Positions 19,277 to 31,067 of a stretch of 64,000 bases of DNA are shown here, in pieces. The notes under the pieces are model-generated. The model was given only the letters and a program-made list of their open reading frames with translations. It was not told where the DNA came from and did not search any database. The stretch spans positions 124,001 to 188,000 of the forward strand of contig NZ_JABMCJ010000077.1 in NCBI RefSeq assembly GCF_013359755.1, in the 5' to 3' direction. The translations under genes and the position numbers were made by a program. The first letter of the stretch is position 1, and each line of letters opens with the position of its first letter. Source of the DNA: Tardiphaga robiniae. GTDB taxonomy: Bacteria; Pseudomonadota; Alphaproteobacteria; Rhizobiales; Xanthobacteraceae.

Positions 19277-19283
19277 GCCCTGC

Positions 19284-19431
19284 CTTCTCCCCGCCTGCGG
19301 GGAGAAGGTGGACCGAACTTGCAGAGCAAGTTCGGGACGGATGAGGGGGACTCTCAGTTTCACTCACTGCCTCCCCCTCACCCGGATTGCTGCGCAATCC
19401 GACCTCTCCCCGCAAGCGGGGAGAGGTTAAG
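19284..19431. repeat. Inverted-pair palindromic intergenic repeat (type I)
   Basis: Left half: TTCTCCCCGCCTGCGGGGAG, a stem GAACTTGC/GCAAGTTC and GATGAGGGGGA. Right half, inverted after a ~20-base spacer: CCCCCTCACCC, a stem GGATTGC/GCAATCC and CTCCCCGCAAGCGGGGAG. It lies between the binding-protein gene and livH of the second Liv operon. Such a pair can fold into a long hairpin in the mRNA and could set the usual excess of binding protein over permease. Confidence 0.85.
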
Positions 19432-19478
19432 ACGCCGCCGCACTCCGGCACACTCCTCACCCGAGAGGCAGATACTTC

Positions 19479-20426
19479 GTGCTTGAACTGATCGTCATCT
19501 CCACGCTCAACGGCGTTCTGTACGGCATGCTGCTGTTCCTGATGGCCTCAGGCCTGACGGTGATCTTCAGCATGCTCGGCGTGCTGAACTTCGCCCATGC
19601 CAGTTTCTACATGCTCGGCGCTTTCTTCGGCTTTCAGATCAGCCGTTGGTTCGGCTTCTGGCCGGCGCTGATCCTTGCGCCGCTGCTGGCCGGCGCGCTC
19701 GGCGCCGCCGTCGAACGCTACGGCCTGCGTCACGTTCACAAGAACGGCCACGTCGCCGAGCTGCTGTTCACCTTCGGGCTTGCTTTCGCCATCGAGGAGA
19801 TCGTGCAGATTATCTGGGGCAAGAGCCCGGTCGATTTCCGCGTACCACCGCTGCTCGACTTCCCGGCCTTCACGCTGTTCTCCACCAACTACCCGGCCTT
19901 CAAGATCTTCATGCTGGTCGTCTCCATCGTGATCTTCATCGGATTGCTGGTGGTGCTGAAGCGCACGCGCATTGGCCTGATCGTGCAGGCGGCGCTGACC
20001 CATCCGCATATGGTCGGCCATCTCGGGCACAATGTCGGGCGTATCTTCATGCTGGTGTTCGGCGTCGGGACTGCGCTCGCCGCCGTCGCCGGCGTGATCG
20101 CAGGCCCGGCGCTGGTGACGCAATCCAACATGGCCGGTCTGCTTGGTCCGATCCTGTTCGTCGTCGTGGTGGTCGGCGGCCTCGGCTCGCTGCCCGGTGC
20201 CTTCATTGCCTCATTGCTGATCGGCCTCGTGCAGACTTTTGCTGTGTCGATGAACGGCTCGCTGGCCGGCGCCTTCGGCCCGCTCAGCCCCGACTATGCC
20301 GCCACCTGGCTCTCCGATATCTGGAACGTCACCGTCGCCCAGATCGCACCGATCATGCCCTATCTGCTGCTGGTGCTGATCCTGATCTTCCGCCCGATGG
20401 GCCTGCTGGGAACACGCGACACATGA
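19479..20426 (+). CDS. livH: Liv-type ABC transporter permease LivH
   Basis: This 315-residue polytopic permease is of the LivH family. GVLNFAHASFYMLGAFFG near residue 35 is the conserved NxAH region, and VVVVGGLGSLPGAFIASLLIG near 225-245 is the conserved cytoplasmic loop contacting the ATPases. Translation begins at GTG 19479 with GAGAGGCAG upstream. The stop overlaps the livM start by four bases (ATGA, 20423-20426), so the two permeases are translationally coupled. Confidence 0.93.
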   Translation: MLELIVISTLNGVLYGMLLFLMASGLTVIFSMLGVLNFAHASFYMLGAFFGFQISRWFGFWPALILAPLLAGALGAAVERYGLRHVHKNGHVAELLFTFGLAFAIEEIVQIIWGKSPVDFRVPPLLDFPAFTLFSTNYPAFKIFMLVVSIVIFIGLLVVLKRTRIGLIVQAALTHPHMVGHLGHNVGRIFMLVFGVGTALAAVAGVIAGPALVTQSNMAGLLGPILFVVVVVGGLGSLPGAFIASLLIGLVQTFAVSMNGSLAGAFGPLSPDYAATWLSDIWNVTVAQIAPIMPYLLLVLILIFRPMGLLGTRDT

Positions 20427-21736
20427 GCGACGCCTTAGCCAAGATTCCGGCAACCATCGCGCCGCCCCGCCCCGCCGCCTCCGACCGGCTGAAGTTCTAC
20501 GGCATCTGGATCGGCGCCGCGCTGGCGCTGCTGGTGCTGCCAAAACTGTTTTCGTCGGGCGGATCGCTGACCACTTTCAGCCTGATCGGCATTTCGATCA
20601 TCTTCTCGTTGTCCTACAATATCCTGCTCGGCCAGACCGGCATGCTGTCGTTCGGCCACGCGGTCTATTACGGCCTCGGCGGCTTCCTCGCGATCCACGC
20701 CATCAACATCATCGCCAGGAACAAGTTCGCGATCCCGCTGCCGCTCGTGCCGCTGGTCGGCGGCGCGGCTGGCCTCGTCTTCGCCATGCTGCTCGGCTGG
20801 GTGTCGACGCGGCGCTCCGGTACGGCCTTTGCGATGATCTCCCTTGGCGTCGCAGAACTCGTCGCATCCTCGGCACTGATCCTGCGCACCTTCTTCGGCG
20901 GCGAAGCCGGCGTCTCCGCCAACCGCACCAAGGTGCTTCGTCTGTTCGACTGGAGCTTCGGCCCGCAGATCCAGATCTATTATCTGGTCGCGGCCTGGAC
21001 GTTGATCGCCGTCATCGCGATGTATGCCCTCACCCGCACGCCGCTGGGGCGCATGTGCAACGCAGTGCGCGACAATCCCGAGCGTGTGCAGTTCGTCGGC
21101 TACGATCCGCACATCATCCGCTATATCGCCTTCTGCTTCTCCGGTCTGTTCGCCGGCATAGCGGGCGCGCTAGCCGCGATCAATTTCGAGATCGCCAATT
21201 CGGCCTATCTCGGCGCCGTACAATCCGGCACCGTGTTGTTCGCCACCTATATCGGCGGCGTCGGCTTCTTCATCGGTCCAATCGTCGGCGCGATCTTCGT
21301 CACGCTGCTGTCGCTCGGCCTCTCCGATCTCACGCAGGTCTGGCAGCTCTATTTCGGCCTGATCTTCATCGCCGTGGTGATGTTCGCGCCCGGCGGCATC
21401 ACCGGCCTTCTGATGATGCACCGACCGCTGCTGAAAGGCGGCACGCTCAGCCGTGTGCTACCGAGCTATCTCGTCGCCTTCGTACCGACGCTGGCGATGA
21501 TCACCGGCCTGATGCTGGCGATCGAGACGACCGTCCACTTCACCGTCAATCCCGGCGAGGACTCGCATATCAAAGCCTTCGGGATTCCATTCGATGCAGC
21601 GAACCCTGCGATCTGGGCCGTTGCCGCCGTGCTGCTGATCGGCGGCTTCATCATCGCGCGCAAGACCTGGGCGCGCGTCGCCGGCAGTTGGGACGATGCC
21701 CTAACCGCCGCGCGCGAGAAGGGAGTGGCCGCATGA
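20423..21736 (+). CDS. livM: Liv-type ABC transporter permease LivM with C-terminal extension
   Basis: This 437-residue LivM permease has the core segments YNILLGQTGMLSFGHAVYYGLGG and a C-terminal conserved loop TYIGGVGFFIGPIVGAIFVTL. It is longer than the ~347-residue LivM of the first operon. After the core it continues with two further hydrophobic segments (LPSYLVAFVPTLAMITGLML and IWAVAAVLLIGGFII). The ATG at 20423 is inside the end of livH; an open frame running back to 19646 is only a shadow of livH. The 3' end overlaps livG by four bases (21733-21736). Confidence 0.92.
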   Translation: MSDALAKIPATIAPPRPAASDRLKFYGIWIGAALALLVLPKLFSSGGSLTTFSLIGISIIFSLSYNILLGQTGMLSFGHAVYYGLGGFLAIHAINIIARNKFAIPLPLVPLVGGAAGLVFAMLLGWVSTRRSGTAFAMISLGVAELVASSALILRTFFGGEAGVSANRTKVLRLFDWSFGPQIQIYYLVAAWTLIAVIAMYALTRTPLGRMCNAVRDNPERVQFVGYDPHIIRYIAFCFSGLFAGIAGALAAINFEIANSAYLGAVQSGTVLFATYIGGVGFFIGPIVGAIFVTLLSLGLSDLTQVWQLYFGLIFIAVVMFAPGGITGLLMMHRPLLKGGTLSRVLPSYLVAFVPTLAMITGLMLAIETTVHFTVNPGEDSHIKAFGIPFDAANPAIWAVAAVLLIGGFIIARKTWARVAGSWDDALTAAREKGVAA

Positions 21737-22482
21737 GCACCGCCATCGAGCTGCGCGGCGTCGAGAAGACCTTCGGCATCACCTCCGTGATCCGCAACGT
21801 CAACCTCACGGTCGCCCAGGGCGAACGCCATGCGCTGATCGGTCCCAACGGCGCCGGCAAGTCGACGCTGTTCAATCTCATCAGCGGCTATATGAAGCCA
21901 TCAGTCGGCAGCATCCTGCTGCGCGATCAGGTGATCTCCGGCCTGCCGCCGTTCCAGATCAACCGGCGCGGATTGTCGCGCAGCTTCCAGGTTACCAACG
22001 TGTTCGCCAAGATGAGCGTGTGGGAGAACCTGCGCTGCGCCGTACTCTGGGCCACCGGCCATCGTTACGCGTTCTGGAAGAATGTCGACAACCTGCCCGA
22101 GGTGCGCGACCGCACCGCGCAAATCCTGCAGGATATCAACCTCGTATCGCGCCGCGACGTACCCGCGGGTCTTTTGACCTATGCCGAACAGCGCGCGCTT
22201 GAAATCGGCATCACCATTGCCGGCGGCGCCGATGTCATCCTGCTGGACGAGCCCACGGCCGGCATGAGCCATGCCGAGACCGAACGCGCCGTGGCACTGA
22301 TCCGGCGGCTGACGGAGGGCCGCACGCTGCTGATCGTCGAGCACGACATGAGCGTGGTGTTTGGCCTCGCCGACCGCATCTCGGTTCTGGTCTATGGCCA
22401 GATCATCGCGTCGGGGGCGCCGGAGGAAATCCGCGGCAATCCCAAGGTCAAGGAAGCCTATCTCGGCGAGGAAGTGGCGTGA
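21733..22482 (+). CDS. livG: Liv-type ABC transporter ATP-binding protein LivG
   Basis: This 249-residue ABC ATPase has Walker A GPNGAGKST near residue 38, a Q-loop (RSFQVTNVFAKMSV), a family-typical altered signature (LTYAEQRALEIGITIA instead of LSGGQ), Walker B DVILLDEPTAGM and an H-loop (LIVEHDMSVV). The C-terminal motif VKEAYLGEE is diagnostic of LivG. It starts with ATG 21733 within a four-base overlap with livM. It forms a heterodimer with the downstream LivF-type ATPase, whose Walker A is altered, so this subunit may carry most ATP turnover. Confidence 0.94.
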   Translation: MSTAIELRGVEKTFGITSVIRNVNLTVAQGERHALIGPNGAGKSTLFNLISGYMKPSVGSILLRDQVISGLPPFQINRRGLSRSFQVTNVFAKMSVWENLRCAVLWATGHRYAFWKNVDNLPEVRDRTAQILQDINLVSRRDVPAGLLTYAEQRALEIGITIAGGADVILLDEPTAGMSHAETERAVALIRRLTEGRTLLIVEHDMSVVFGLADRISVLVYGQIIASGAPEEIRGNPKVKEAYLGEEVA

Positions 22483-23177
22483 TGCTCCAAGTTCAGGACC
22501 TGCACGCCTATTACGGCAAGAGCCACATCCTGCAGGGCGTCGATCTGCATATCGATGCCGGCGAGGTCGTCAGCCTGCTCGGCCGCAACGGCGTCGGGCG
22601 CTCCACCACCGTGAAGGCCATCATGGGCGAAGTGCCGCCACACGGCACCATCACCTTCAAGGGCGCCAATATCGCCGGCCTGCCGAGCTTCAGGATCGCG
22701 CATCTCGGCCTCGGCTATGTACCGGAGCATCGCGACATCTTTCCGGGCCTCACGGTACGGCAGAACCTGATGCTGGGGATCAAGGATCCGCGTCATCCCG
22801 GCAAGTGGAAACTCGACGACATGCTCGGCATGTTTCCGAACCTCGCCGCGCGCGCCGACACTGCGGCCGGCGTGCTGTCCGGCGGCGAGAAGCAGATGCT
22901 GACGATCTGCCGGACGCTGATGGGCGATCCTGAACTCGTGATGATCGACGAGCCCACCGAGGGCCTTGCACCGATCATCGTGCAGCAGGTCGGCGACCTC
23001 ATCGCCGAGATCGCACGCCGCGGCGTGGCGATCCTGCTTGTCGAACAGAAGCTGTCGATCGCGCTGCGCATCTCGCACCGGGTCTATGTGATGGGCCACG
23101 GCCGTATCGTGTTCGAAGGCACGCCCGCCGAACTCAAGGCCAATGACGCCGTGCGCAGGGAATGGCTGGAAGTCTGA
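22479..23177 (+). CDS. livF: Liv-type ABC transporter ATP-binding protein LivF with Walker A Lys-to-Arg change
   Basis: This 232-residue ABC ATPase of the LivF type has signature VLSGGEKQMLTICRTLM, Walker B ELVMIDEPTEGLAP and an H-loop-position LVEQKLS. The Walker A reads GRNGVGRST (residues ~35-43), with Arg at position 41 where lysine is expected; the codon CGC is clear in the sequence. Starts at GTG 22479 (GTGA overlap with livG) or ATG 22482. It is last gene of the second Liv operon, followed by a palindromic repeat. The change may weaken ATP hydrolysis at one of the two composite sites, or may be a subfamily feature. Confidence 0.92.
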   Translation: MMLQVQDLHAYYGKSHILQGVDLHIDAGEVVSLLGRNGVGRSTTVKAIMGEVPPHGTITFKGANIAGLPSFRIAHLGLGYVPEHRDIFPGLTVRQNLMLGIKDPRHPGKWKLDDMLGMFPNLAARADTAAGVLSGGEKQMLTICRTLMGDPELVMIDEPTEGLAPIIVQQVGDLIAEIARRGVAILLVEQKLSIALRISHRVYVMGHGRIVFEGTPAELKANDAVRREWLEV

Positions 23178-23189
23178 ACGCTCTTCCTT

Positions 23190-23343
23190 ACCTCTCCCCG
23201 CTTGCGGGGAGAGGTCGATGTCCGCATGCGAAGCCTGCGGGCGTCGGGTGAGGGGGAATCTCCACATGCTTCGAGCCCGCTGAGAGTCCCCCTCACCCGA
23301 CCGCGCTTCGCGCGGCCACCCTCTCCCCGCAAGCGGGGAGAGG
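23190..23343. repeat. Inverted-pair palindromic intergenic repeat (type I)
   Basis: Left half: CTCCCCGCTTGCGGGGAG, a variable stem around GCATGCGAAGCCTGC, then GGGTGAGGGGGA. Right half, inverted: CCCCCTCACCC, stem CCGCGCttcgcGCGG, then CTCCCCGCAAGCGGGGAG. It fills the convergent gap between livF and the Crp-type regulator gene and could serve as a bidirectional terminator. Confidence 0.85.
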
Positions 23344-23374
23344 AAACGCGCCACCGCTGCGTCCTAGCCACGGC

Positions 23375-24049
23375 CTAGTCGCCGTAGCTACCCAACTTTT
23401 CGAGATCGACCACTGTCACGCCGCCATATTCGAGCCGCAGCAGACCCTCCTTCTCCAGCGTCTGCAGGCACTGGTTCGCCCTCTGCCGCGAAATGCCGCT
23501 GATGGCACCGAGCTCTTCCTGGGTGATGTCCAGATGCCTGGTCGCGTCGCGATAGAGGATCGGGTTGAACAGCGAGGCAATGCAGCGCGCGAGGCGTCCT
23601 GTGGCGTCGAGCCTGCGGCCATATTCAGTCAGTGCGATGAATTGACCGAGCCGTTCGTTCAACAGCGAAACCAGGAAGCGGTTGAAGCCGACACTGTTCT
23701 CGAACAGCCACATAAATGCCGGGCGCTCCATGAATGCGAGCTTGGAGTCGCGTAGCGGGACAATGTCGTAGCGGCGCGGCTCGTTCTTCAGCACGCTGCC
23801 CTCGCCGAACCACGCACCGGCCGTCAGGCCGGTGATACTGACCTCCTTGCCGCTGCGCGAGATGGTACCGATCTTCGCCAGACCGCTCACCACGCCGGTC
23901 CAGTATTCGAACTGGTCACCGCGCATGCAGACGAATTCATTCGCCTTGAACGACTTCTCGACGATGCCGGCGCGCGCGACCTCGATCTCCTTCTCGTTCA
24001 GGTCCCGCGCCCAGGCCGCGATGCGCTTGAGATGATCTGCAGCAATCAT
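23375..24049 (-). CDS. Crp/Fnr-family transcriptional regulator
   Basis: This 224-residue protein has an N-terminal cyclic-nucleotide-binding-type beta-barrel (residues ~20-120, FVCMRGDQFEYWTGVVSGLAKIG) and a C-terminal winged helix (~150-220) with recognition region LDITQEELGAISGISRQRANQCLQTL. The N-terminal cysteine cluster of an oxygen-sensing FNR is absent. The ATG at 24049 was preferred to 24082, whose extra 11 residues look non-homologous. It lies between two Liv operons, convergent with the second and divergent from the third, so it may regulate the third. The effector is unknown. Confidence 0.87.
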   Translation of the reverse strand: MIAADHLKRIAAWARDLNEKEIEVARAGIVEKSFKANEFVCMRGDQFEYWTGVVSGLAKIGTISRSGKEVSITGLTAGAWFGEGSVLKNEPRRYDIVPLRDSKLAFMERPAFMWLFENSVGFNRFLVSLLNERLGQFIALTEYGRRLDATGRLARCIASLFNPILYRDATRHLDITQEELGAISGISRQRANQCLQTLEKEGLLRLEYGGVTVVDLEKLGSYGD

Positions 24050-24096
24050 AGGGTCCGCTTCACTTCGAATGTTGCAGCGCAAAAGAACGCTCGCGC

Positions 24097-24119
24097 GACA
24101 AATTGGCAGGCAGATTGTC
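24097..24119. promoter_or_regulatory. Inverted repeat in the Crp-regulator / third Liv operon divergent gap
   Basis: GACAA-N13-TTGTC lies between the regulator start (24049) and the operon start (24277). It could be an operator for the neighbouring Crp-type protein, but the spacing is wider than a standard CRP or FNR site. The rest of the 227-base gap shows no clear promoter consensus. Confidence 0.25.
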
Positions 24120-24276
24120 CGCCGCGAGACATTTCAGGATACCGATTTGACGTAGGGAAGACCACCGCGAAAGGTCATTAGTAGAATGGCTTAGCGTGAC
24201 CGGGCGATATAGGCTCGGGACCATCCGAGGAACGTGGATAAAGAGCGCGACAAGCGCCGTATCTGGGAGGATTTGA

Positions 24277-25098
24277 GTGGCGGTTGCTCTGGACGTGCGC
24301 GGGGTGTCACTGCGCTTTGGTGGCGTTCGCGCGCTCACCGATGTGAGTTTCGCTGTCAATGACGGCGAGCTGTTCTCGATCATCGGGCCGAACGGCGCGG
24401 GCAAGACCTCCATCGTCAACTGCATCTCCGGCCGCTATCGCCCAACCGAAGGCCAGCTGTTCTATCACGGCAAGGATATCACCGGACTCAACCCGAATGC
24501 CCGCCCCGGTCTCGGCATCGGCCGCACCTTTCAGAACCTCGCGCTGTTTCATCATATGAGCGTGCTCGACAACATCATGGTCGGCCGCCATCACCTCCTG
24601 AAGAACAACTTCCTCACCGGCTCGCTGTACTGGCTGACCGGCGCACGCAAGGAAGAGCTCGAGCATCGCCGCAAGGTCGAGGAGATCATCGACTTCCTCG
24701 ATCTGCAGAGCGTGCGCAAGGCCACCGCCGGCACCCTTCCCTATGGTCTGCGCAAACGCGTCGAACTCGCCCGCGCGATGGCGCTGGAGCCCAACCTCAT
24801 CCTCCTCGACGAGCCTATGGCCGGCATGAACTTCGAGGAGAAGGAGGACATGGCGCGTTATATCGTCGATCTCAATGAAGAATACGGGATGACGGTGATG
24901 ATGATCGAACACGACATGGGCGTCGTGATGGATATCTCCCATCGCGTGATGGTGCTGGATTTCGGCCGCAAGATCGCCGAGGGCGATCCGGCTGCCGTGC
25001 TCGCCGATCCGCACGTCAAGCGCGCCTATCTCGGTGAAGAAGACGAAGCCCTCGTCGATCCCGACCATGCGCCTATCGCTGCGGAGAGTGCCGCATGA
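24277..25098 (+). CDS. livG: Liv-type ABC transporter ATP-binding protein LivG
   Basis: This 273-residue ABC ATPase has Walker A GPNGAGKTS near residue 38, Q-loop GRTFQNLALFHHM, an altered signature of the LivG type (LPYGLRKRVELARAMA), Walker B NLILLDEPMAGM and H-loop MIEHDMGVVM. C-terminal VKRAYLGEE is a LivG hallmark; about 20 acidic residues follow. Translation starts at GTG 24277, six bases after GGGAGG. It is first gene of the third Liv operon and overlaps the acyl-CoA synthetase gene by four bases, tying transport and activation together. Confidence 0.94.
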   Translation: MAVALDVRGVSLRFGGVRALTDVSFAVNDGELFSIIGPNGAGKTSIVNCISGRYRPTEGQLFYHGKDITGLNPNARPGLGIGRTFQNLALFHHMSVLDNIMVGRHHLLKNNFLTGSLYWLTGARKEELEHRRKVEEIIDFLDLQSVRKATAGTLPYGLRKRVELARAMALEPNLILLDEPMAGMNFEEKEDMARYIVDLNEEYGMTVMMIEHDMGVVMDISHRVMVLDFGRKIAEGDPAAVLADPHVKRAYLGEEDEALVDPDHAPIAAESAA

Positions 25099-27026
25099 TC
25101 GACTATGCCGGACGCGTCAAACAGGCAGATACCTATCCGAAGCTGCTGCGCCTCAACGCCAAAGAACATGGCCAAGAGATCGCGCTGCGCGAGAAGGATT
25201 TCGGCCTGTGGCGGGAGTTCACCTGGAACGATTACCATGCCCGGGTGAAGGATTTCACGCTCGGCATGGTCGCGCTCGGCATCGCGCGTGGTGATGTCAT
25301 CGGCATTATCGGCGATAACCGGCCGGACTGGGTCGCTGCCGAGATCGCCGCGCATGCCATCGGTGGTATGAGCCTCGGTCTCTATCGCGACGTACTGGAT
25401 GAGGAAGCCGCCTATCTCCTCAACTACGGCGAAGCCAAGATCGTGTTCGCCGAGGATGAAGAACAGGTCGACAAGCTGCTCACCCTCGCCGAGCGAGTCC
25501 CTGCGCTGAAGCACATCGTCTACAGCGATCCGCGCGGCATGCGAAAATATGACGACCCGCGCCTGTTGGAGGCCGACAGGCTCGCCCAGATGGGCCGCGA
25601 CCGTGCGGCGCGCGAGCCGGGCCTCTACGATCAACTGGTCGATGCGACGCAGGGCGAGGATGTCGCGATCCTCTGCACCACGTCGGGCACCACGTCGAAT
25701 CCCAAGCTGGCGATGCTCGCGGCGGGCCGCGTGCTCGGCCACTGCGCGGTGTATCTGTCGTTCGATCCGAAGGGACCGGATGATGAATATGTTTCGGTGC
25801 TGCCGCTGCCCTGGATCATGGAACAGGTCTATGCGCTCGGCAAAGGTCTCCTGAGCCGGATGAAGGTCAACTTCGTCGAGCAAGCCGACACCATGATGAA
25901 CGATTTTCGTGAGATCGCGCCTACTTTCGTGCTGTTCGCCCCGCGGGTCTGGGAAGGTATCGCAGCTGACGTGCGCGCACGGGTGATGGATTCGTCGCCG
26001 CTGAAGCAAAGCCTGTATGAGCTCGGCATGAAGTCGGGCCTGTCCGCACTTGCGCAAGGCAAGCGCTCGGCCGTCGCCGATACGCTGCTGTTTCGTGCCC
26101 TGCGTGATCGTCTCGGCTTCACACGGCTGCGCTCGGCCGCCACCGGCGGCGCCGCACTGGGCCCCGATACATTCAAATTCTTCCGCGCCATGGGCGTACC
26201 GCTGCGCACACTCTATGGCCAGACCGAAACACTCGGCGCCTTCACGCTGCATCCGCCAGACGCTGTCGATCCCGACACCACCGGCATCGCCATGGGCAGC
26301 GGCATCGAAATCGAAGTCCGCGATCCCGACGTGCAAGGCGTCGGCGAGATCGTGGTCAGGCATCCCAATATGTTTCTTGGCTATTACAAATCGCCCGAGG
26401 CTTCCGCCGCCGATCTGCGCGATGGCTGGATGCACTCCGGCGATGCCGGCTATTTCAACGACAACAAGCAGCTCGTCGTCATCGACCGCATCAAGGATCT
26501 GGCACAGACCGCGCGCGGCGAGCGCTTCTCCCCGCAATATATCGAGAACAAACTGAAATTCTCGCCCTATATCGCCGAGACCGTGGTGCTGGGCGACAAC
26601 CGCGATGCACTCGCGGCGATGATCTGCATCCGCTTCTCGATCATCTCGAAATGGGCCGAGAAGAACCGCATCTCGTTTACGACCTATACGGACCTGTCGT
26701 CTCGCCCGGAGGTCTATGAGATGATCCGCAAGGAAGTCGCGACGGTGAATGCCACGCTGCCGCCTGCGCAGCGGATCGCCAAATTCCTGCTGCTGTACAA
26801 GGAGCTCGACGCCGACGACGGCGAGCTGACCCGCACCCGAAAAGTCCGCCGCAGCGTCATCAACGAGAAATACGCCGATATCATCGACGGCATCTATGGC
26901 GGCGCCCGGGATATCCCCGTCGACACCACCATCCGCTTCCAGGACGGCACCTCCCAGCGCATCCGCACGCGATTGGTCGTGGTGGACATGGCGCGGGATG
27001 GCGCGCGCATGGAGGCGGCGGAATGA
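25095..27026 (+). CDS. Long-chain-type acyl-CoA synthetase (AMP-forming)
   Basis: This 643-residue ANL-superfamily enzyme has phosphate-binding motif TSGTTSNPK (~residues 198-206; the usual Gly after TT is Ser), an adenine-region motif YGQTET and the hinge motif (IDRIKDLAQTARGERFSPQYIENKL) close to that of eukaryote-like long-chain synthetases. It converts a carboxylic acid, ATP and CoA to acyl-CoA. It lies inside a Liv operon, with a four-base overlap (25095-25098) with livG. It probably activates the imported acid on entry (inference). Chain-length preference cannot be read. Confidence 0.92.
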   Translation: MIDYAGRVKQADTYPKLLRLNAKEHGQEIALREKDFGLWREFTWNDYHARVKDFTLGMVALGIARGDVIGIIGDNRPDWVAAEIAAHAIGGMSLGLYRDVLDEEAAYLLNYGEAKIVFAEDEEQVDKLLTLAERVPALKHIVYSDPRGMRKYDDPRLLEADRLAQMGRDRAAREPGLYDQLVDATQGEDVAILCTTSGTTSNPKLAMLAAGRVLGHCAVYLSFDPKGPDDEYVSVLPLPWIMEQVYALGKGLLSRMKVNFVEQADTMMNDFREIAPTFVLFAPRVWEGIAADVRARVMDSSPLKQSLYELGMKSGLSALAQGKRSAVADTLLFRALRDRLGFTRLRSAATGGAALGPDTFKFFRAMGVPLRTLYGQTETLGAFTLHPPDAVDPDTTGIAMGSGIEIEVRDPDVQGVGEIVVRHPNMFLGYYKSPEASAADLRDGWMHSGDAGYFNDNKQLVVIDRIKDLAQTARGERFSPQYIENKLKFSPYIAETVVLGDNRDALAAMICIRFSIISKWAEKNRISFTTYTDLSSRPEVYEMIRKEVATVNATLPPAQRIAKFLLLYKELDADDGELTRTRKVRRSVINEKYADIIDGIYGGARDIPVDTTIRFQDGTSQRIRTRLVVVDMARDGARMEAAE

Positions 27027-27046
27027 AGAACCTGAGCTTTACCGAT

Positions 27047-27117
27047 AGCCCCCCTCACCCGGCACGCGCGCTAACGCGCGCCTGCCGACCTCTCCCCGCA
27101 AGCGGGGGGAGGTTAAG
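27047..27117. repeat. Single palindromic repeat half (type I, right-handed)
   Basis: CCCCCTCACCCGG, stem CACGCGCGCTAACGCGCG, then CTCCCCGCAAGCGGGGGG and AGGTTAAG. It has the same order and orientation as the right inverted repeat of the DUF559 unit that begins 24 bases later. It lies immediately after the acyl-CoA synthetase stop. Confidence 0.8.
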
Positions 27118-27136
27118 AAACTGCGGCGTCTCGGTT

Positions 27137-27544
27137 CTAGCTAACCTCTCCCCGCTTGCGGGGAGAGGTCGGATCGCTCTTGCGATCCGGGTGAGGGGGA
27201 GCTTCCGCAAGCGCCGTCGCAATGACTTCGACAACACCCTCGATATTGTCCAAGACATCATGGTTCCAGAATCTGAGCACCCGGTAATGATGCTCGACCA
27301 GCCACTGGTCACGGGCAACATCGCGCACATTGTCAGCGTGTTGCCCACCATCCACCTCAACGATCAGACGCCGCTCCCGGCAGATCATATCGACGATGTA
27401 GTTGCCGATCGACTCTTGTCGCACAAACTTGTGCCCGTCCAAGGAACGTGCGCGAAGGCGATACCAAAGCGCATTCTCGGCATCGGTCGAATCTCGCCGC
27501 AGCCTTCTGGCACGTGTGGTTCTGACCGCATTGGCCTTGCGCAT
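27137..27544 (-). CDS. DUF559 (Vsr-like) endonuclease-fold protein
   Basis: This 135-residue protein of the DUF559 family has a PD-(D/E)xK-type core: basic N-terminus, ENALWYRLRARSLDGHKFVRQ, then the acidic active-site-like residues Asp52 (YIVDMICRERR) and Glu63/Asp65 (LIVEVDGGQH). The last ~23 residues (from PHPDRKSDPTSPRKRGEVS) are encoded by an inverted repeat, and the ATG abuts the inner edge of the opposite repeat. It is on the strand opposite to the liv operon that surrounds it. No biochemical role is established for this group; the fold is that of very short patch repair nucleases and some transposition nucleases. Confidence 0.85.
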   Translation of the reverse strand: MRKANAVRTTRARRLRRDSTDAENALWYRLRARSLDGHKFVRQESIGNYIVDMICRERRLIVEVDGGQHADNVRDVARDQWLVEHHYRVLRFWNHDVLDNIEGVVEVIATALAEAPPHPDRKSDPTSPRKRGEVS

Positions 27545-27606
27545 GTGGAAGCTCCCCTCACCCGGCGCTGCGCGCCGACCTCTCCCCGCAAGCGGGGAGA
27601 GGTTAG
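27141..27606 (-). mobile_element. Candidate DUF559 mobile unit bounded by ~65-bp inverted repeats
   Basis: The left end (27141-27209) begins CTAACCTCTCCCCGCTTGCG and ends GTGAGGGGGAGCTTCC. The reverse complement of the right end (27541-27606) begins with the same bases and ends GTGAGGGGAGCTTCC. Only the small central stem (ATCGC..GCGAT versus CGCGC..GCGCC) and one G differ. Each end contains the perfect palindrome CTCCCCGCTTGCGGGGAG. The DUF559 ORF fills the interior. The unit sits between the acyl-CoA synthetase gene and livH, splitting an otherwise tight operon. No target duplication is obvious. Mobility is inference. Confidence 0.6.
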
Positions 27607-27621
27607 CACTCCGGCCATCGC

Positions 27622-28515
27622 ATGAACACGCAGTTCCTCCTCCAGCTTCTGGTCAACGGCCTCGTGGTGGGCACGCTTTATGGCGTGGTCGCGATGTCGT
27701 TCGTGCTGATCTACAAGGCGACGCAGGTCGTGAATTTCGCGCAGGGCGAATTGCTGCTGATCGGGGCCTGGGTGTGCTGGACGTTGCTGACCAAATACCA
27801 GGTGCCGTTCTGGCTGGGCATGCCGATGACGCTGGTGTTCATGTTCGCCTTCGGCATCCTGATCCAGGTCGTGATCCTGCGGCCGCTGGTCGGCGAGCCG
27901 GTCATCTCGGTGATCATGGTGACCATCGCGCTGTCCGCCGTGTTTCAGGCGGCACTGAAATGGATCTATGGCGTCAACCCGCAGCCATTCCCGCGTGTCT
28001 TCACCAGCCAGTCGGTGACGATCGGTAGCCTACAGATCCAGACCGTCTACGTGATGAGCCTGGTTGTCTCCGTCGCGATGATGATCGGCATGGCGTGGTT
28101 CTTCAAGGTCTCAAAATGGGGCCTCGCGATGCGCGCCACCGCGTTCAACCAGCAGGTCGCGCAATCGCTGGGCATTTCCGTCAAAACCGTATTCGCGATG
28201 GCCTGGGCGATCTCGGCCATGGTCTCCGCGGTCGCCGGCGTCGTCGTCGCCGTCGTCAACGGCGTGTCATCCGGCCTGTCGATCTACGGCATCAAGGTGT
28301 TTCCGGCGGTTATTCTCGGCGGCCTCGACTCCATCGGCGGCGCCGTGGTTGGCGGCATCATCATCGGGCTGCTGGAGAACTTCGCGCAATTCATCGACAG
28401 CGAATATCTGCACTGGGGCAATCTCTATGAGGTCGCGCCGTTCTACGTGCTCATCATCATCCTGATGATCAAGCCTTACGGCCTGTTCGGCACCAAAGAC
28501 ATCGAGCGGGTGTAA
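27622..28515 (+). CDS. livH: Liv-type ABC transporter permease LivH
   Basis: This 297-residue polytopic permease is of the LivH family, with YKATQVVNFAQGELLLIGAW near residue 35 (NxAQGE variant) and VFPAVILGGLDSIGGAVVGGIIIG near 228-250. The ATG at 27622 follows the right inverted repeat of the DUF559 unit by 15 bases, so its native leader has been replaced by repeat DNA, and the ribosome-binding site is not obvious. The stop is five bases before livM. It belongs to the third Liv system. Confidence 0.93.
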   Translation: MNTQFLLQLLVNGLVVGTLYGVVAMSFVLIYKATQVVNFAQGELLLIGAWVCWTLLTKYQVPFWLGMPMTLVFMFAFGILIQVVILRPLVGEPVISVIMVTIALSAVFQAALKWIYGVNPQPFPRVFTSQSVTIGSLQIQTVYVMSLVVSVAMMIGMAWFFKVSKWGLAMRATAFNQQVAQSLGISVKTVFAMAWAISAMVSAVAGVVVAVVNGVSSGLSIYGIKVFPAVILGGLDSIGGAVVGGIIIGLLENFAQFIDSEYLHWGNLYEVAPFYVLIIILMIKPYGLFGTKDIERV

Positions 28516-28520
28516 GCATC

Positions 28521-29594
28521 ATGGCCAGTCCCTCCCTCATCCCGGCCGGCGATTTCCGCAGTTCCTATGCGGTCGACACCACCATCTTCCCGACCAAGAC
28601 CAGCCGCAACGCGGCGATCCTCGGCGTGGTGCTGATCTGTTTCGCGCCGCAACTGCTCAGCGAATACTGGCTCAGCCAGCTGATCATGATCGGCATCTAC
28701 GGCATCGCGGCGCTGGGGCTCAACATCCTGGTCGGCTTTACCGGCCAGATTTCCATCGGCCACGCCGCGTTCTTCCTGTTCGGCGCTTTCACCTCGGCCT
28801 ATATCTCCAACAACTATCCGATCCCGGTGTTTTTCTCGATTCCCATCGCCGGCGTGGTAACGGCCATCGTGGGACTCATTTTCGGCCTGCCGGCGGCGCG
28901 GTTGAAGGGGCTATACCTCGTGATCGCCACGCTGGCCGCGCAATACATTCTGCTCGACTTCTTCTCCCGCGCCGACTGGTTCAGCGGCGGCTCGGTGCCG
29001 GCGACGGCCAAAGCGTTCTCGATCTTCGACCATACGCTGCGCGGCGACCGGCAGTATTTCTATGTGGTGCTGGCCTATGTGGTGGCGAGCTATCTGCTGG
29101 TTACCAACCTGATGCGCTCGCGCGACGGCCGCGCGCTGGTGGCTGTGCGTGATCACTATCTCTCGGCCGAGATCATGGGCATCAATCTCACCAAATATCG
29201 CACGCTGTCCTTCGGGCTCGCCGCGTTCTTCGCCGGCATCGCCGGCGCGCTGTACGCGCATAACCAGCTCGTGGTCTCCAACGAGGGTTTCGGCATCGAG
29301 CGCTCGATCCTGTTCCTGGCAATGGTCATCATCGGCGGTACCGGCTCCATCATGGGAACGCTGATGGGCACGGCCTTCGTGGTGCTGGTGCCGGAAGCGA
29401 TGGAATGGATCAGCATGGAGCTGAAGGGCGGCGTCATCGACAAAGCGCTGGCGCTCAACAACAATCTGACCTTTCTGCGCGAGATCGCCATCGGCCTCAT
29501 CATCATCGCCTTCCTGGTGTTCGAACCCGACGGGCTCGCGCATCGCTGGCGGCAGATCAAGACCTACTGGAAACTCTACCCGTTCTCGCATTGA
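28521..29594 (+). CDS. livM: Liv-type ABC transporter permease LivM
   Basis: This 357-residue polytopic permease is of the LivM family, with LNILVGFTGQISIGHAAFFLFGAF near residues 73-96, RSRDGRALVAVRDHYLSAEIMGI near 195-217 and MVIIGGTGSIMGTLMGTAF near 270. Length is normal, and the C-terminal extension seen in the second operon is absent. The ATG at 28521 is five bases after livH. Together they form the channel of the third Liv system. Confidence 0.93.
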   Translation: MASPSLIPAGDFRSSYAVDTTIFPTKTSRNAAILGVVLICFAPQLLSEYWLSQLIMIGIYGIAALGLNILVGFTGQISIGHAAFFLFGAFTSAYISNNYPIPVFFSIPIAGVVTAIVGLIFGLPAARLKGLYLVIATLAAQYILLDFFSRADWFSGGSVPATAKAFSIFDHTLRGDRQYFYVVLAYVVASYLLVTNLMRSRDGRALVAVRDHYLSAEIMGINLTKYRTLSFGLAAFFAGIAGALYAHNQLVVSNEGFGIERSILFLAMVIIGGTGSIMGTLMGTAFVVLVPEAMEWISMELKGGVIDKALALNNNLTFLREIAIGLIIIAFLVFEPDGLAHRWRQIKTYWKLYPFSH

Positions 29595-29649
29595 GAACGG
29601 GACGGACTGGACGAAACGACAAAATATAAAATCCAACGGGAGAATGCTC

Positions 29650-30930
29650 ATGACGATGAAATCATTTCTAACGTCCGCGTCCATTGCCCTTCTGATCGCG
29701 GGTGCGTCCGCCAGTGCGCAGGCGCAGATCGCCGTCGGCCACCTCGCCGATTATTCCGGCGGCACCTCCGACGTCGGTACGCCCTACGGCCAGGGCGTGG
29801 TCGATACCTATGCCTGGATCAACAAGAATGGCGGCGTCGGCGGCAAGCAGGTCAATCTCGATAGCAACGACTATGGCTATCAGGTGCCGCGCGCCATAGC
29901 CCTGTACAAGAAGTGGTCGGGCGCCGACAAGGTCGCGGCGATCATGGGCTGGGGCACGGCAGATACCGAGGCGCTCACCGGCTTCCTCGCACAGGACAAG
30001 ATCCCGGATATCTCGGGCTCCTACTCGGCCGCGCTGACCGACCCGACCGGTGCCGGCGGCAAGGCGAAGCCCGCGCCGTATAATTTCTTCTACGGCCCGT
30101 CCTATTCGGACGCACTACGCGCCGAACTGACCTGGGCAGCGGAGGACTGGAAGTCCAAGGGCAAGTCGGGCAAGCCGAAATATGTCCATATGGGCGCCAA
30201 TCATCCCTACCCCAACGCGCCTAAAGCGGCTGGTGAAGCGCTCGCCGCCGAACTCGGCTTTGACGTGTTGCCGCCACTGGTCTTCGCACTCGCGCCCGGT
30301 GACTACAGCGCACAGTGCCTGAGCCTGAAGAGCGCCGGCGCGAACTATGCTTATCTCGGCAACACCGCAGCTTCCAACATCTCGGTGATGAAGGCCTGCA
30401 AGGCTGCCGGCGTCGACGTACAGTTCATGAGCAATGTGTGGGGCATGGACGAGAACGCGGCAAAGGCCGCAGGCGATGCTGCCGATGGCGTGATCTTCCC
30501 GCTGCGCACGGCGGTGAGCTGGGGCGGCAACGCGCCGGGCATGAAGACGGTGCAGGAGATTTCCAAGATCTCCGATCCTTCGGGCAAGATCTATCGCCCG
30601 GTGCACTACATCGCCGCGGTCTGCACCTCGCTCTACATGAAGGAAGCGCTCGACTGGGCCGCGAAGAACGGCGGCGCTACCGGCGAGAACGTCGCCAAGG
30701 GCTTCTACCAGAAGAAGGACTGGGTACCGGCCGGCATGGAAGGCGTCTGCAATCCCTCGACCTGGACCCACAAGGATCACCGCCCGACCACCAAGGTCGA
30801 CCTGTATCGCTCGAAGGTCTCCGGCGCGACCGATGGCGATCTGAACGATCTGATGGCCAAGGGCACGATCAAGCTGGAGAAGGTGAAGACCGTGGAGCTG
30901 CCGCGCAAGCCGGAATGGCATGGGTGGTAG
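29650..30930 (+). CDS. Liv-type ABC transporter periplasmic substrate-binding protein
   Basis: This protein of ~426 residues has a signal peptide (MKSFLTSASIALLIAGASAS, cleavage near AQA) and a type I periplasmic-binding fold starting IAVGHLADYSGGTSDVGTPY. It is visibly different from the other two binding proteins (VPRAIALYKKW; TTKVDLYRSK near the C-terminus). ATG 29650 has a well-spaced GGGAGA; ATG 29644 would place it only one base away. It is downstream of livM and upstream of livF in the operon that also carries the acyl-CoA synthetase. A ligand that becomes a CoA thioester is inferred. Confidence 0.92.
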   Translation: MTMKSFLTSASIALLIAGASASAQAQIAVGHLADYSGGTSDVGTPYGQGVVDTYAWINKNGGVGGKQVNLDSNDYGYQVPRAIALYKKWSGADKVAAIMGWGTADTEALTGFLAQDKIPDISGSYSAALTDPTGAGGKAKPAPYNFFYGPSYSDALRAELTWAAEDWKSKGKSGKPKYVHMGANHPYPNAPKAAGEALAAELGFDVLPPLVFALAPGDYSAQCLSLKSAGANYAYLGNTAASNISVMKACKAAGVDVQFMSNVWGMDENAAKAAGDAADGVIFPLRTAVSWGGNAPGMKTVQEISKISDPSGKIYRPVHYIAAVCTSLYMKEALDWAAKNGGATGENVAKGFYQKKDWVPAGMEGVCNPSTWTHKDHRPTTKVDLYRSKVSGATDGDLNDLMAKGTIKLEKVKTVELPRKPEWHGW

Positions 30931-30952
30931 TTTGAACTAAGACGCCGATGTT

Positions 30953-31067
30953 CCCCTCCCCCTTGCGGGGAGGGGTCAGGGGTGGGGGTGCCACGAGCGA
31001 CGGCGCTTGTGGCACCCCCACCCGACCGGCCCAAGTGGGCCGGCCACCCTCCCCGCAAGGGGGAGGG
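30953..31067. repeat. Inverted-pair palindromic intergenic repeat (type II)
   Basis: Left half: CCCTCCCCCTTGCGGGGAGG then GGGTGGGGGTGCC. Right half inverted: GGCACCCCCACCC, a stem CCGGCCcaagtGGGCCGG, then CCTCCCCGCAAGGGGGAGGG. It separates the binding-protein gene from livF in the third Liv operon and has the same design as the unit at 2364-2516. Confidence 0.85.

Follow-up and report, generated by a model that had tools for sequence, protein, structure and literature searches.

The DUF559 element in the window

The window analysed here, a 64-kb stretch of a Tardiphaga robiniae genome (G000; 6.3 Mb, 94 contigs), raises the question of whether a small DUF559 gene bracketed by two inverted repeats can be a mobile unit in its own right. 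The original prediction described two near-identical inverted ends, a perfect palindrome in each, and a 135-codon frame running from the inner edge of one repeat across the other, on the strand opposite to the liv genes; all of these were recovered (Table 1). The outer arms (27140-27177 and 27570-27607) are 95% complementary over 38 nt, the inner arms (27187-27198 and 27554-27565) match at 100%, and each repeat holds one perfect palindrome. The minus-strand ORF begins some 10 bp inward of the right repeat, reads through the left palindrome and stops shortly after it, with its last ~20 codons encoded by the repeat (predicted as ~23), and both neighbouring host genes lie on the plus strand. The 135-residue protein matched PF04480 with an E value of 2.8e-37, and its best named DUF559 matches were Bradyrhizobium and Afipia records. 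A Pfam scan of two ORFs of the unit identified one as DUF559 and gave no match for the other, so that neither of these two is a transposase by Pfam.

Table 1. Positions of the DUF559 element, related repeats and neighbouring genes in the window.
Feature	Position	Strand	Remarks
DUF559 (PF04480) single-domain nuclease gene	27137..27544	-	135 aa; Pfam match, AlphaFold2 model
Left triplex-motif repeat	27140..27198	+	Palindrome 27144-27169, small stem, third G-rich block 27189-27198 gene-facing
Right triplex-motif repeat	27554..27607	-	Palindrome 27578-27603, third block 27554-27563 gene-facing
Further degenerate repeat of this kind, single and outside the DUF559 element	27050..27115	-	
Host gene left of site: long-chain acyl-CoA synthetase-like, 643 aa	25095..27026	+	Name from sequence reading
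Host gene right of site: livH-like branched-chain amino acid permease	27622..28515	+	Name from sequence reading
Gene-free inverted triplex-motif pair	19283..19427	.	Proposed non-autonomous copy
Gene-free inverted triplex-motif pair	23190..23343	.	Proposed non-autonomous copy
Gene-free inverted pair, third motif sub-family	30953..31067	.	Overlaps predicted start of next ORF

We scanned the window for mirror-matching G-rich blocks preceded by a pyrimidine-rich hairpin, a query of which DUF559 was not part. Four inverted motif pairs were found (19283-19427, 23190-23343, 27144-27603 and 30953-31067), with palindromes outside and G-rich blocks inside in 4/4, and 20 shuffled windows (mononucleotide, + strand only) contained no such motif. 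Only the 27144-27603 pair encloses a gene of its own; the other three are gene-free. Genome-wide, the pattern ACCTCTCCCCGCN{2,8}GCGGGGAGAGGT occurred at 47 places versus 0 for a reversed-pattern control. By reading of these places, only two palindrome pairs in this genome were spaced 400-600 bp apart, and each held a DUF559 gene. The nuclease gene is framed by the same palindromes as those dispersed in the genome, an arrangement shared with REPtrons. All four window pairs lie within 12 kb (19283-31067), around the liv genes.

Triplex-motif layout of the repeats

Each window repeat consists of CCTCTCCCC(loop)GGGGAGAGG, a short spacer or small stem, and GGGTGAGGGG, with variants of both sequence parts; in the two repeats of the DUF559 element this third G-rich block, GGGTGAGGGG, faces the gene. 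Judged from its letters, the repeat is laid out like the intrastrand triplex motif (TM or TM_ECO, earlier PIT). The defining features of that motif, a pyrimidine arm with its purine counterpart and, mirroring the latter, a third purine-rich strand, were all present, with a triad match of 0.82-1.0 in eight window repeats (the ninth row, at 0.75, is the 19283 palindrome read backwards). We also compared mirror and direct fits in the flanks of DUF559 loci with a flank score (defined below) of 18 or more. Arms were asymmetric in 136 of 157 hairpin flank repeats; among these the mirror fitted better in 75, the direct repeat in 5, and the rest tied. The third block therefore mirrors the purine arm as expected for a purine-motif intrastrand triplex, across sub-families with different arms.

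The TM_ECO consensus is CCCTCNCCC N3-6 GGGNGAGGG N3 GGGNGAGGG, with 23 copies in MG1655 (PMC4666352). According to that paper, G/C-rich triplex motifs occur in >260 prokaryotes in unusually variable surroundings, and TM_ECO forms a stable triplex in vitro, with in vivo support absent. Its authors never found mobility genes around TM_ECO sites, and a link to DUF559 is absent from the sections consulted. The window repeats share with TM/PIT a hairpin (CCCTCTCCC-loop-GGGAGAGGG), a short loop and a third strand (GGGTGAGGG), as well as intergenic placement in inverted pairs; they differ from TM_ECO by a small stem in the second loop and extra GC in the arm. The assignment of the palindromes to an alphaproteobacterial family in the original prediction was too narrow, as the triplex-motif layout is found across phyla, E. 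coli included.

Inverted flanks of DUF559 genes

We scored the DUF559 hits of three sets of loci by the similarity of the upstream flank to the reverse-complemented downstream flank, a measure to which any inverted repeat contributes. The sets were the genus (18 genomes, 45 of at least 60 matches), the best 80 named loci of 574 relatives found in GTDB species, and a phylum sample of 29 new loci from 150 genomes. The 160 domain hits were reduced to 157 by removing L037 (flank too short), L083 (a stretch of N) and L056 (fetched twice, as L003 before). The original prediction depended on flanking palindromes being usual among DUF559 homologs, and matched inverted flanks, at a threshold of 22 that was set after the scores had been seen, were found for 97/157 hits (99/159 before removal of L083 and L056), with 28/44 in the genus, 53/84 among the named loci and 16/29 in the phylum sample. 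Among control neighbouring genes only 1/292 reached this score, in a region fetched for its repeat pair, and mismatched flank pairs did so in 72/1586 cases. At a threshold of 18 the counts were 106/159 for DUF559 vs 7/292 for controls, and at 14 they were 125/159 vs 8/292. The remaining 60/157 hits had no matched flanks.

The motif itself was searched with regular expressions written after the repeats had been seen, so that this test was not blind. Allowing up to two mismatches, a TM-like pattern occurred in both flanks of 63 of the 97 positive loci, in one flank of 21 and in neither flank of 13, some of the last being sub-families outside the range of the pattern (e.g., L085 and L163). The corresponding numbers for the other 60 hits were 17, 25 and 18. 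Only 3/196 flanks of 98 control genes matched. The third strand faced the gene in 136 one-way flanks and pointed away in 16; 54 flanks matched both ways and 108 neither.

Long DUF559 frames of about 400-470 residues, counted among the matches listed in 15/18 genus genomes, provided an internal control: the six that were scored (L004, L035 and L064-L067) had flank scores of at most 9.5. In these six, the DUF559 domain lies at the C-terminal end of a ~406-residue frame.

Positive loci came from Alpha-, Beta-, Gamma- and Deltaproteobacteria, Chloroflexi and Nitrospirae and, on plasmids, from Deinococcus and Cyanobacteria. The cyanobacterial plasmid locus L312 has an inverted repeat of another sequence. 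In the plasmid collection 39 records matched DUF559, and of 28 fetched, 12 reached at least 18 and 10 at least 22. Seven of eight Azospirillum copies scored below 18. Phage records gave one DUF559 match (39% identity, E 2e-10). In Legionella anisa (L136), DUF559 sits between near-identical ~147-bp inverted repeats; these far exceed the usual motif in length and may be recent. On three cyanobacterial plasmids (L305, L310 and L313) the gene lies near DUF1156, DUF499 or BREX-type pglX genes, which suggests that some DUF559 genes sit in defence islands.

Nuclease groups and repeat sub-families

Within the genus, DUF559s of at least 60% identity at different sites in different genomes had a median repeat similarity of 25.4 (37 pairs), compared with 11.6 for less similar DUF559s (533 pairs) and 11.6 for different DUF559s of one genome (29 pairs); the test was run without L025 and L037, and 31 genus pairs share a site, so that related loci are not independent. 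Nuclease and repeat sub-family, as far as their sequences tell, tend to keep company while changing address. Different repeats at each copy would have counted against the original prediction; the repeats agree among similar DUF559s at different sites and differ between DUF559 groups. None of the 29 same-genome pairs was at least 60% identical (0/29), and recent copying was therefore not seen.

In a sample of 150 genomes, at least 5 motifs were present in 21/36 DUF559-positive vs 7/114 negative genomes (p 1e-10), where positive means a best E ≤1.2e-14 (36 genomes), 13 genomes with weaker matches (6.8e-8 and above) were counted negative, and the motif was counted in one exact form that misses other sub-families. 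The same held within the class of the window genome (13/24 with DUF559 vs 1/17 without; p 0.002). Two observations speak against a simple dependence. Within the genus, clade-B repeats, the sub-family to which those of the window belong, were not significantly more numerous where clade-B DUF559 is present (6 genomes) than where it is absent (12 genomes; p 0.45). Genome G071 carried 57 motif copies and no DUF559 match, and among the places listed for it no motif pair had the spacing of a DUF559 element. Repeats could outlive their enzyme or be moved by other DUF559s. At one place in G071 (G071:C29:102018-102629), five motif copies form a regular 147-bp tandem array.

Empty sites among sister species

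The gap between the acyl-CoA synthetase and livH genes is 595 bp in the window genome and 540 bp in G009, both with a DUF559 element. In G015, G017 and G007 the same gap is 10 bp, and in G002, G004, G005 and G014 the two genes meet in overlapping ATGA codons, so that the empty sites that the original prediction had proposed to look for at this junction are present in seven sister genomes. Four others (G003, G006, G008 and G013) carry gene-free inverted motif pairs of 244-262 bp there, and these pairs look like another sub-family than the window repeats. G003 is about as close a relative as the empty sisters, and its gene-free pair at this junction would also suit a homing route. A different short repeat fills the gap in G012 and G016, the G001 match breaks off, leaving 42 bp, and G010 and G011 gave no match across the site.

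Five further sites were searched for in six genomes, and two of them (those of L003 and L031) were aligned; sisters differ at both, with whole intergenic stretches exchanged. No clear target duplication, which would be the cleanest mark of transposition, was found at any empty site, and the DNA beside the repeats differs too. Seven of eight Azospirillum plasmid copies lie at one place, and therefore no target duplication was obtained there either. To judge from the alignments, the pattern is in keeping with intergenic hot spots that gain and lose such sequences repeatedly, and it does not show a transposition event base by base. Of the gene-free pairs of the window, pair 19283-19427 is also present in G017, and G015, G003 and G007 carry different repeats in its position; pair 23190-23343 is absent from all four of these sisters, which have 7-11 bp instead.

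Other repeat types were seen in the same gaps. In sister genomes, at the sites matching window positions 27027-27621 and 19278-19476, another short repeat with GGCCATCCACG-like palindromes occupies the gap (L189, L192, L280, L281 and L283), as if unrelated repeats compete for the same intergenic hot spots. At the site of L031, where G015 has a DUF559 element, L244, L241 and L247 show a third repeat type (CCTCATGGTGAGGAGGCGCC...).

The DUF559 protein

An AlphaFold2 model of the window protein (67 sequences, mean pLDDT 84.2) matched 3hrl best (E 3.8e-8, TMt 0.90), followed among nucleases by the homing endonuclease I-Bth0305I (E 1.1e-3, 0.72) and, weakly, E. coli Vsr (E 0.16); the second-ranked match overall was a mitochondrial ribosomal protein with a low target score. 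A profile search likewise gave 3hrl and 3r3p, its other hits being weak and taken as chance. Residues D52, E63, D65 and H69 are among those invariant in the 67 sequences, and we take them to be candidate catalytic residues. Together with the PF04480 match, they place the protein among the DUF559 / Vsr-like PD-(D/E)xK nucleases. On the model, the fold would be common to I-Bth0305I (3r3p) and Vsr (1vsr); the window gene differs in being framed by repeats, and no intron or intein was seen.

NGO0050 (3hrl), E. coli YcjD and, according to its paper, Caulobacter VsrA are DUF559 proteins. YcjD has been tied to Vsr through profile comparison (PMC1189080). VsrA is reported to lie behind a DNA-damage response in Caulobacter cells without a solitary cytosine methyltransferase, and was proposed to act in very-short-patch repair (PMC12907096). 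Because of this response, an active nuclease is plausible for DUF559 by analogy.

A proposed minimal mobile unit and its alternatives

The window unit resembles REP/BIME/REPIN systems with RAYT (TnpA_REP, 'REPtrons') in having a single small nuclease gene framed by short palindromes, in the dispersal of the same palindromes between genes as gene-free inverted pairs, and in a nuclease family tied to repeat presence. It differs in its nuclease, which is Vsr-like PD-(D/E)xK (PF04480) instead of HUH/Y1 (PF01797), and in the triplex-motif layout of its repeats. The DUF559–TM unit would work like a REP/RAYT system but lacks one of the features that define it, an HUH nuclease. No GTAG/CGTC tag was seen by eye at the window palindromes, although tag variants such as CCTC exist (PMC3733652). 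As candidates for the window repeat, Bradyrhizobium Br-REP1 and Br-REP2 were rejected as other sequences on passages of PMC5082802, and the CGTC families were compared through their text description only (PMC3733652). The titles and abstracts listed in searches of the open-licence literature contained no link between DUF559, COG2852, PF04480, YcjD or NGO0050 and triplex or palindromic repeats. Both parts are known separately; what we regard as new is the DUF559–TM pairing and the role proposed for it.

We lean, by a little more than even chances, towards the view that the DUF559 gene and its two inverted TM/PIT repeats form a minimal mobile unit, in which the motif is recognised and cut or nicked and pairs are carried elsewhere. 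We base this on physical linkage, the motif layout, the partial match of nuclease group and repeat sub-family, the presence or absence of the element in sisters, and the nuclease fold with its invariant acidic and histidine residues, and from these we infer recognition and cutting of the motif by DUF559 and movement driven by that cutting. The Vsr-like nuclease would recognise the motif in its folded form, a hairpin with the third G-rich strand, which it would probably meet extruded or single-stranded at replication forks, and would nick or cut there. Repair or replication would then carry whatever lies between a pair of inverted motifs into another intergenic position, by single-strand excision, copy-out or break repair. 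Gene-free inverted pairs would be non-autonomous copies moved in trans and single motifs remnants. Against this view count the empty sites without a clear target duplication, the clade-B repeat numbers in the genus, the 7/114 DUF559-negative genomes with at least 5 motifs, the 60/157 hits without matched flanks, the gene-free pair of G003, the outside third strand in two Deinococcus loci and the lack of similar same-genome DUF559 pairs (0/29). The original prediction, which cast DUF559 as a REP/RAYT-like counterpart and the ORF-less pairs as possible derivatives, is in keeping with the matched flanks (97/157), the empty sites and the cognate repeats.

The main rival, which we judge unlikely, is that DUF559 is a homing-type selfish gene that cuts gene-free TM pairs and is copied in by homologous repair, the repeats serving as homology arms and spreading by another route. 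The fold and profile similarity to I-Bth0305I, the homology that the repeats would supply, and the gene-free pairs at the same intergenic place in four sisters, near relative G003 included, all suit such a gene. By reading, however, those four pairs seem to belong to a sub-family other than that of the window's repeats; G015, G017 and G007, which are near relatives too, have a 10-bp spacer at the site; and homing leaves the spread of the repeats unexplained, though motifs are rare in DUF559-negative genomes. Less probable again is a resident host repair nuclease for hairpin/triplex or mismatch lesions, with adjoining motifs acting on its expression and spreading by slippage and recombination. 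The VsrA damage response and very-short-patch proposal (PMC12907096) would accord with a repair function, as would the reported instability of TM_ECO loci between E. coli strains (PMC4666352) and the presence of most of the ycjD-holding region in 3333/5375 matching E. coli genomes. Yet both-sided inverted placement, a sub-family match and empty sites are unexpected for a regulatory motif, and an earlier study cited in PMC4666352 saw no promoter or terminator activity for it.

Two further readings were considered. In one, a RAYT/IS200-type Y1 transposase moves them and DUF559 is cargo; RAYT genes are indeed flanked by REPs or TIRs in many genomes, some TIRs with GGGGWSAS (PMC3733652). But the window genome has no Y1_Tnp (RAYT-family) match, and across the 150 genomes the presence of at least 5 motifs was unrelated to Y1_Tnp (17/88 with vs 11/62 without; p 0.84). 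In addition, 30 Y1_Tnp loci were fetched; among the 22 with enough sequence for scoring, a single one showed inverted flanks, and these differed in sequence. We therefore rejected RAYT as the mover in this genome and, on the counts, across the sample, and consider hitch-hiking very improbable. In the other, abundant independent repeats happen to bracket a small gene; some genomes do hold many motif copies (up to 322), but the scarcity of inverted flanks around control genes (1/292, against 97/157) and in mismatched pairs (72/1586) and the consistent orientation (136 vs 16) leave chance bracketing a negligible probability, and it was rejected.

DUF559 and triplex motifs in other bacteria

The same DUF559–repeat pairing in very different bacteria makes DUF559 a candidate for the missing mover of triplex repeats. 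We regard as evenly balanced the question whether, throughout bacteria, DUF559s serve intrastrand-triplex repeats as their dedicated mobility enzymes, in minimal elements that together form one class and take in ycjD and TM_ECO. On the same reading, and with the odds equally poised, such elements would be unrelated to REP/RAYT in both protein and DNA, would recognise triple-stranded or hairpin DNA and would fill intergenic DNA with gene-free inverted pairs. A tie of the triplex repeats to any protein is absent from the literature surveyed despite their spread (>260 prokaryotes; PMC4666352), and the physical link to a small nuclease family makes that spread testable in E. coli. If true, mobility would explain the scatter of the DUF559 family and its insertion inside gene clusters, and the joining of a nuclease to palindromes, familiar from REP/RAYT, would have been invented twice independently.

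Deinococcus and Sphingomonas. Three Deinococcus species carry DUF559 in the same hpa gene cluster, each at a different junction and on the opposite strand, with flank scores of 8, 18.5 and 38.5; gene content differs too, and the hpa locus L300 has no matched flanks. The Deinococcus loci L300, L304, L306 and L307 are on plasmids, and in L306 and L307 the third strand, by reading, is outside (reversed orientation). In Sphingomonas, sufB and sufC have a DUF559 gene between them (score 21), and a transhydrogenase gene set contains another (score 9).

N. gonorrhoeae and E. coli. NGO0050 and ycjD adjoin triplex-like motifs without a clean inverted pair. The N. gonorrhoeae locus L298 encodes the 3hrl protein (NGO0050, by residue comparison) and is bordered on each side by a motif-like sequence, the two being directly oriented. 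The E. coli DUF559 gene ycjD ends on a degenerate motif and has a full one downstream only: ~170 bp beyond it lies a 36-base sequence identical letter for letter to TM_ECO no. 9, whose letters nos. 16, 19 and 22 share. TM_ECO no. 9 is listed at 1,351,204-1,351,239 on the minus strand of MG1655 (PMC4666352), and the ycjD-side stretch maps to 1,351,080-1,351,260, minus, in a record of K-12 size (4,641,498 bp). Because position and strand coincide, the copy beside ycjD is almost surely no. 9. The ycjD site varies among E. coli genomes; in STEC299, the one differing genome looked at, an efflux operon occupies it instead (PMC12817139), so no simple insertion is shown there. The 3' end of ycjD is duplicated downstream (L275 2240-2420; L316), and in E. 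coli strain 2024CK-00616 the segment between the two copies has been lost, leaving ycjD truncated.
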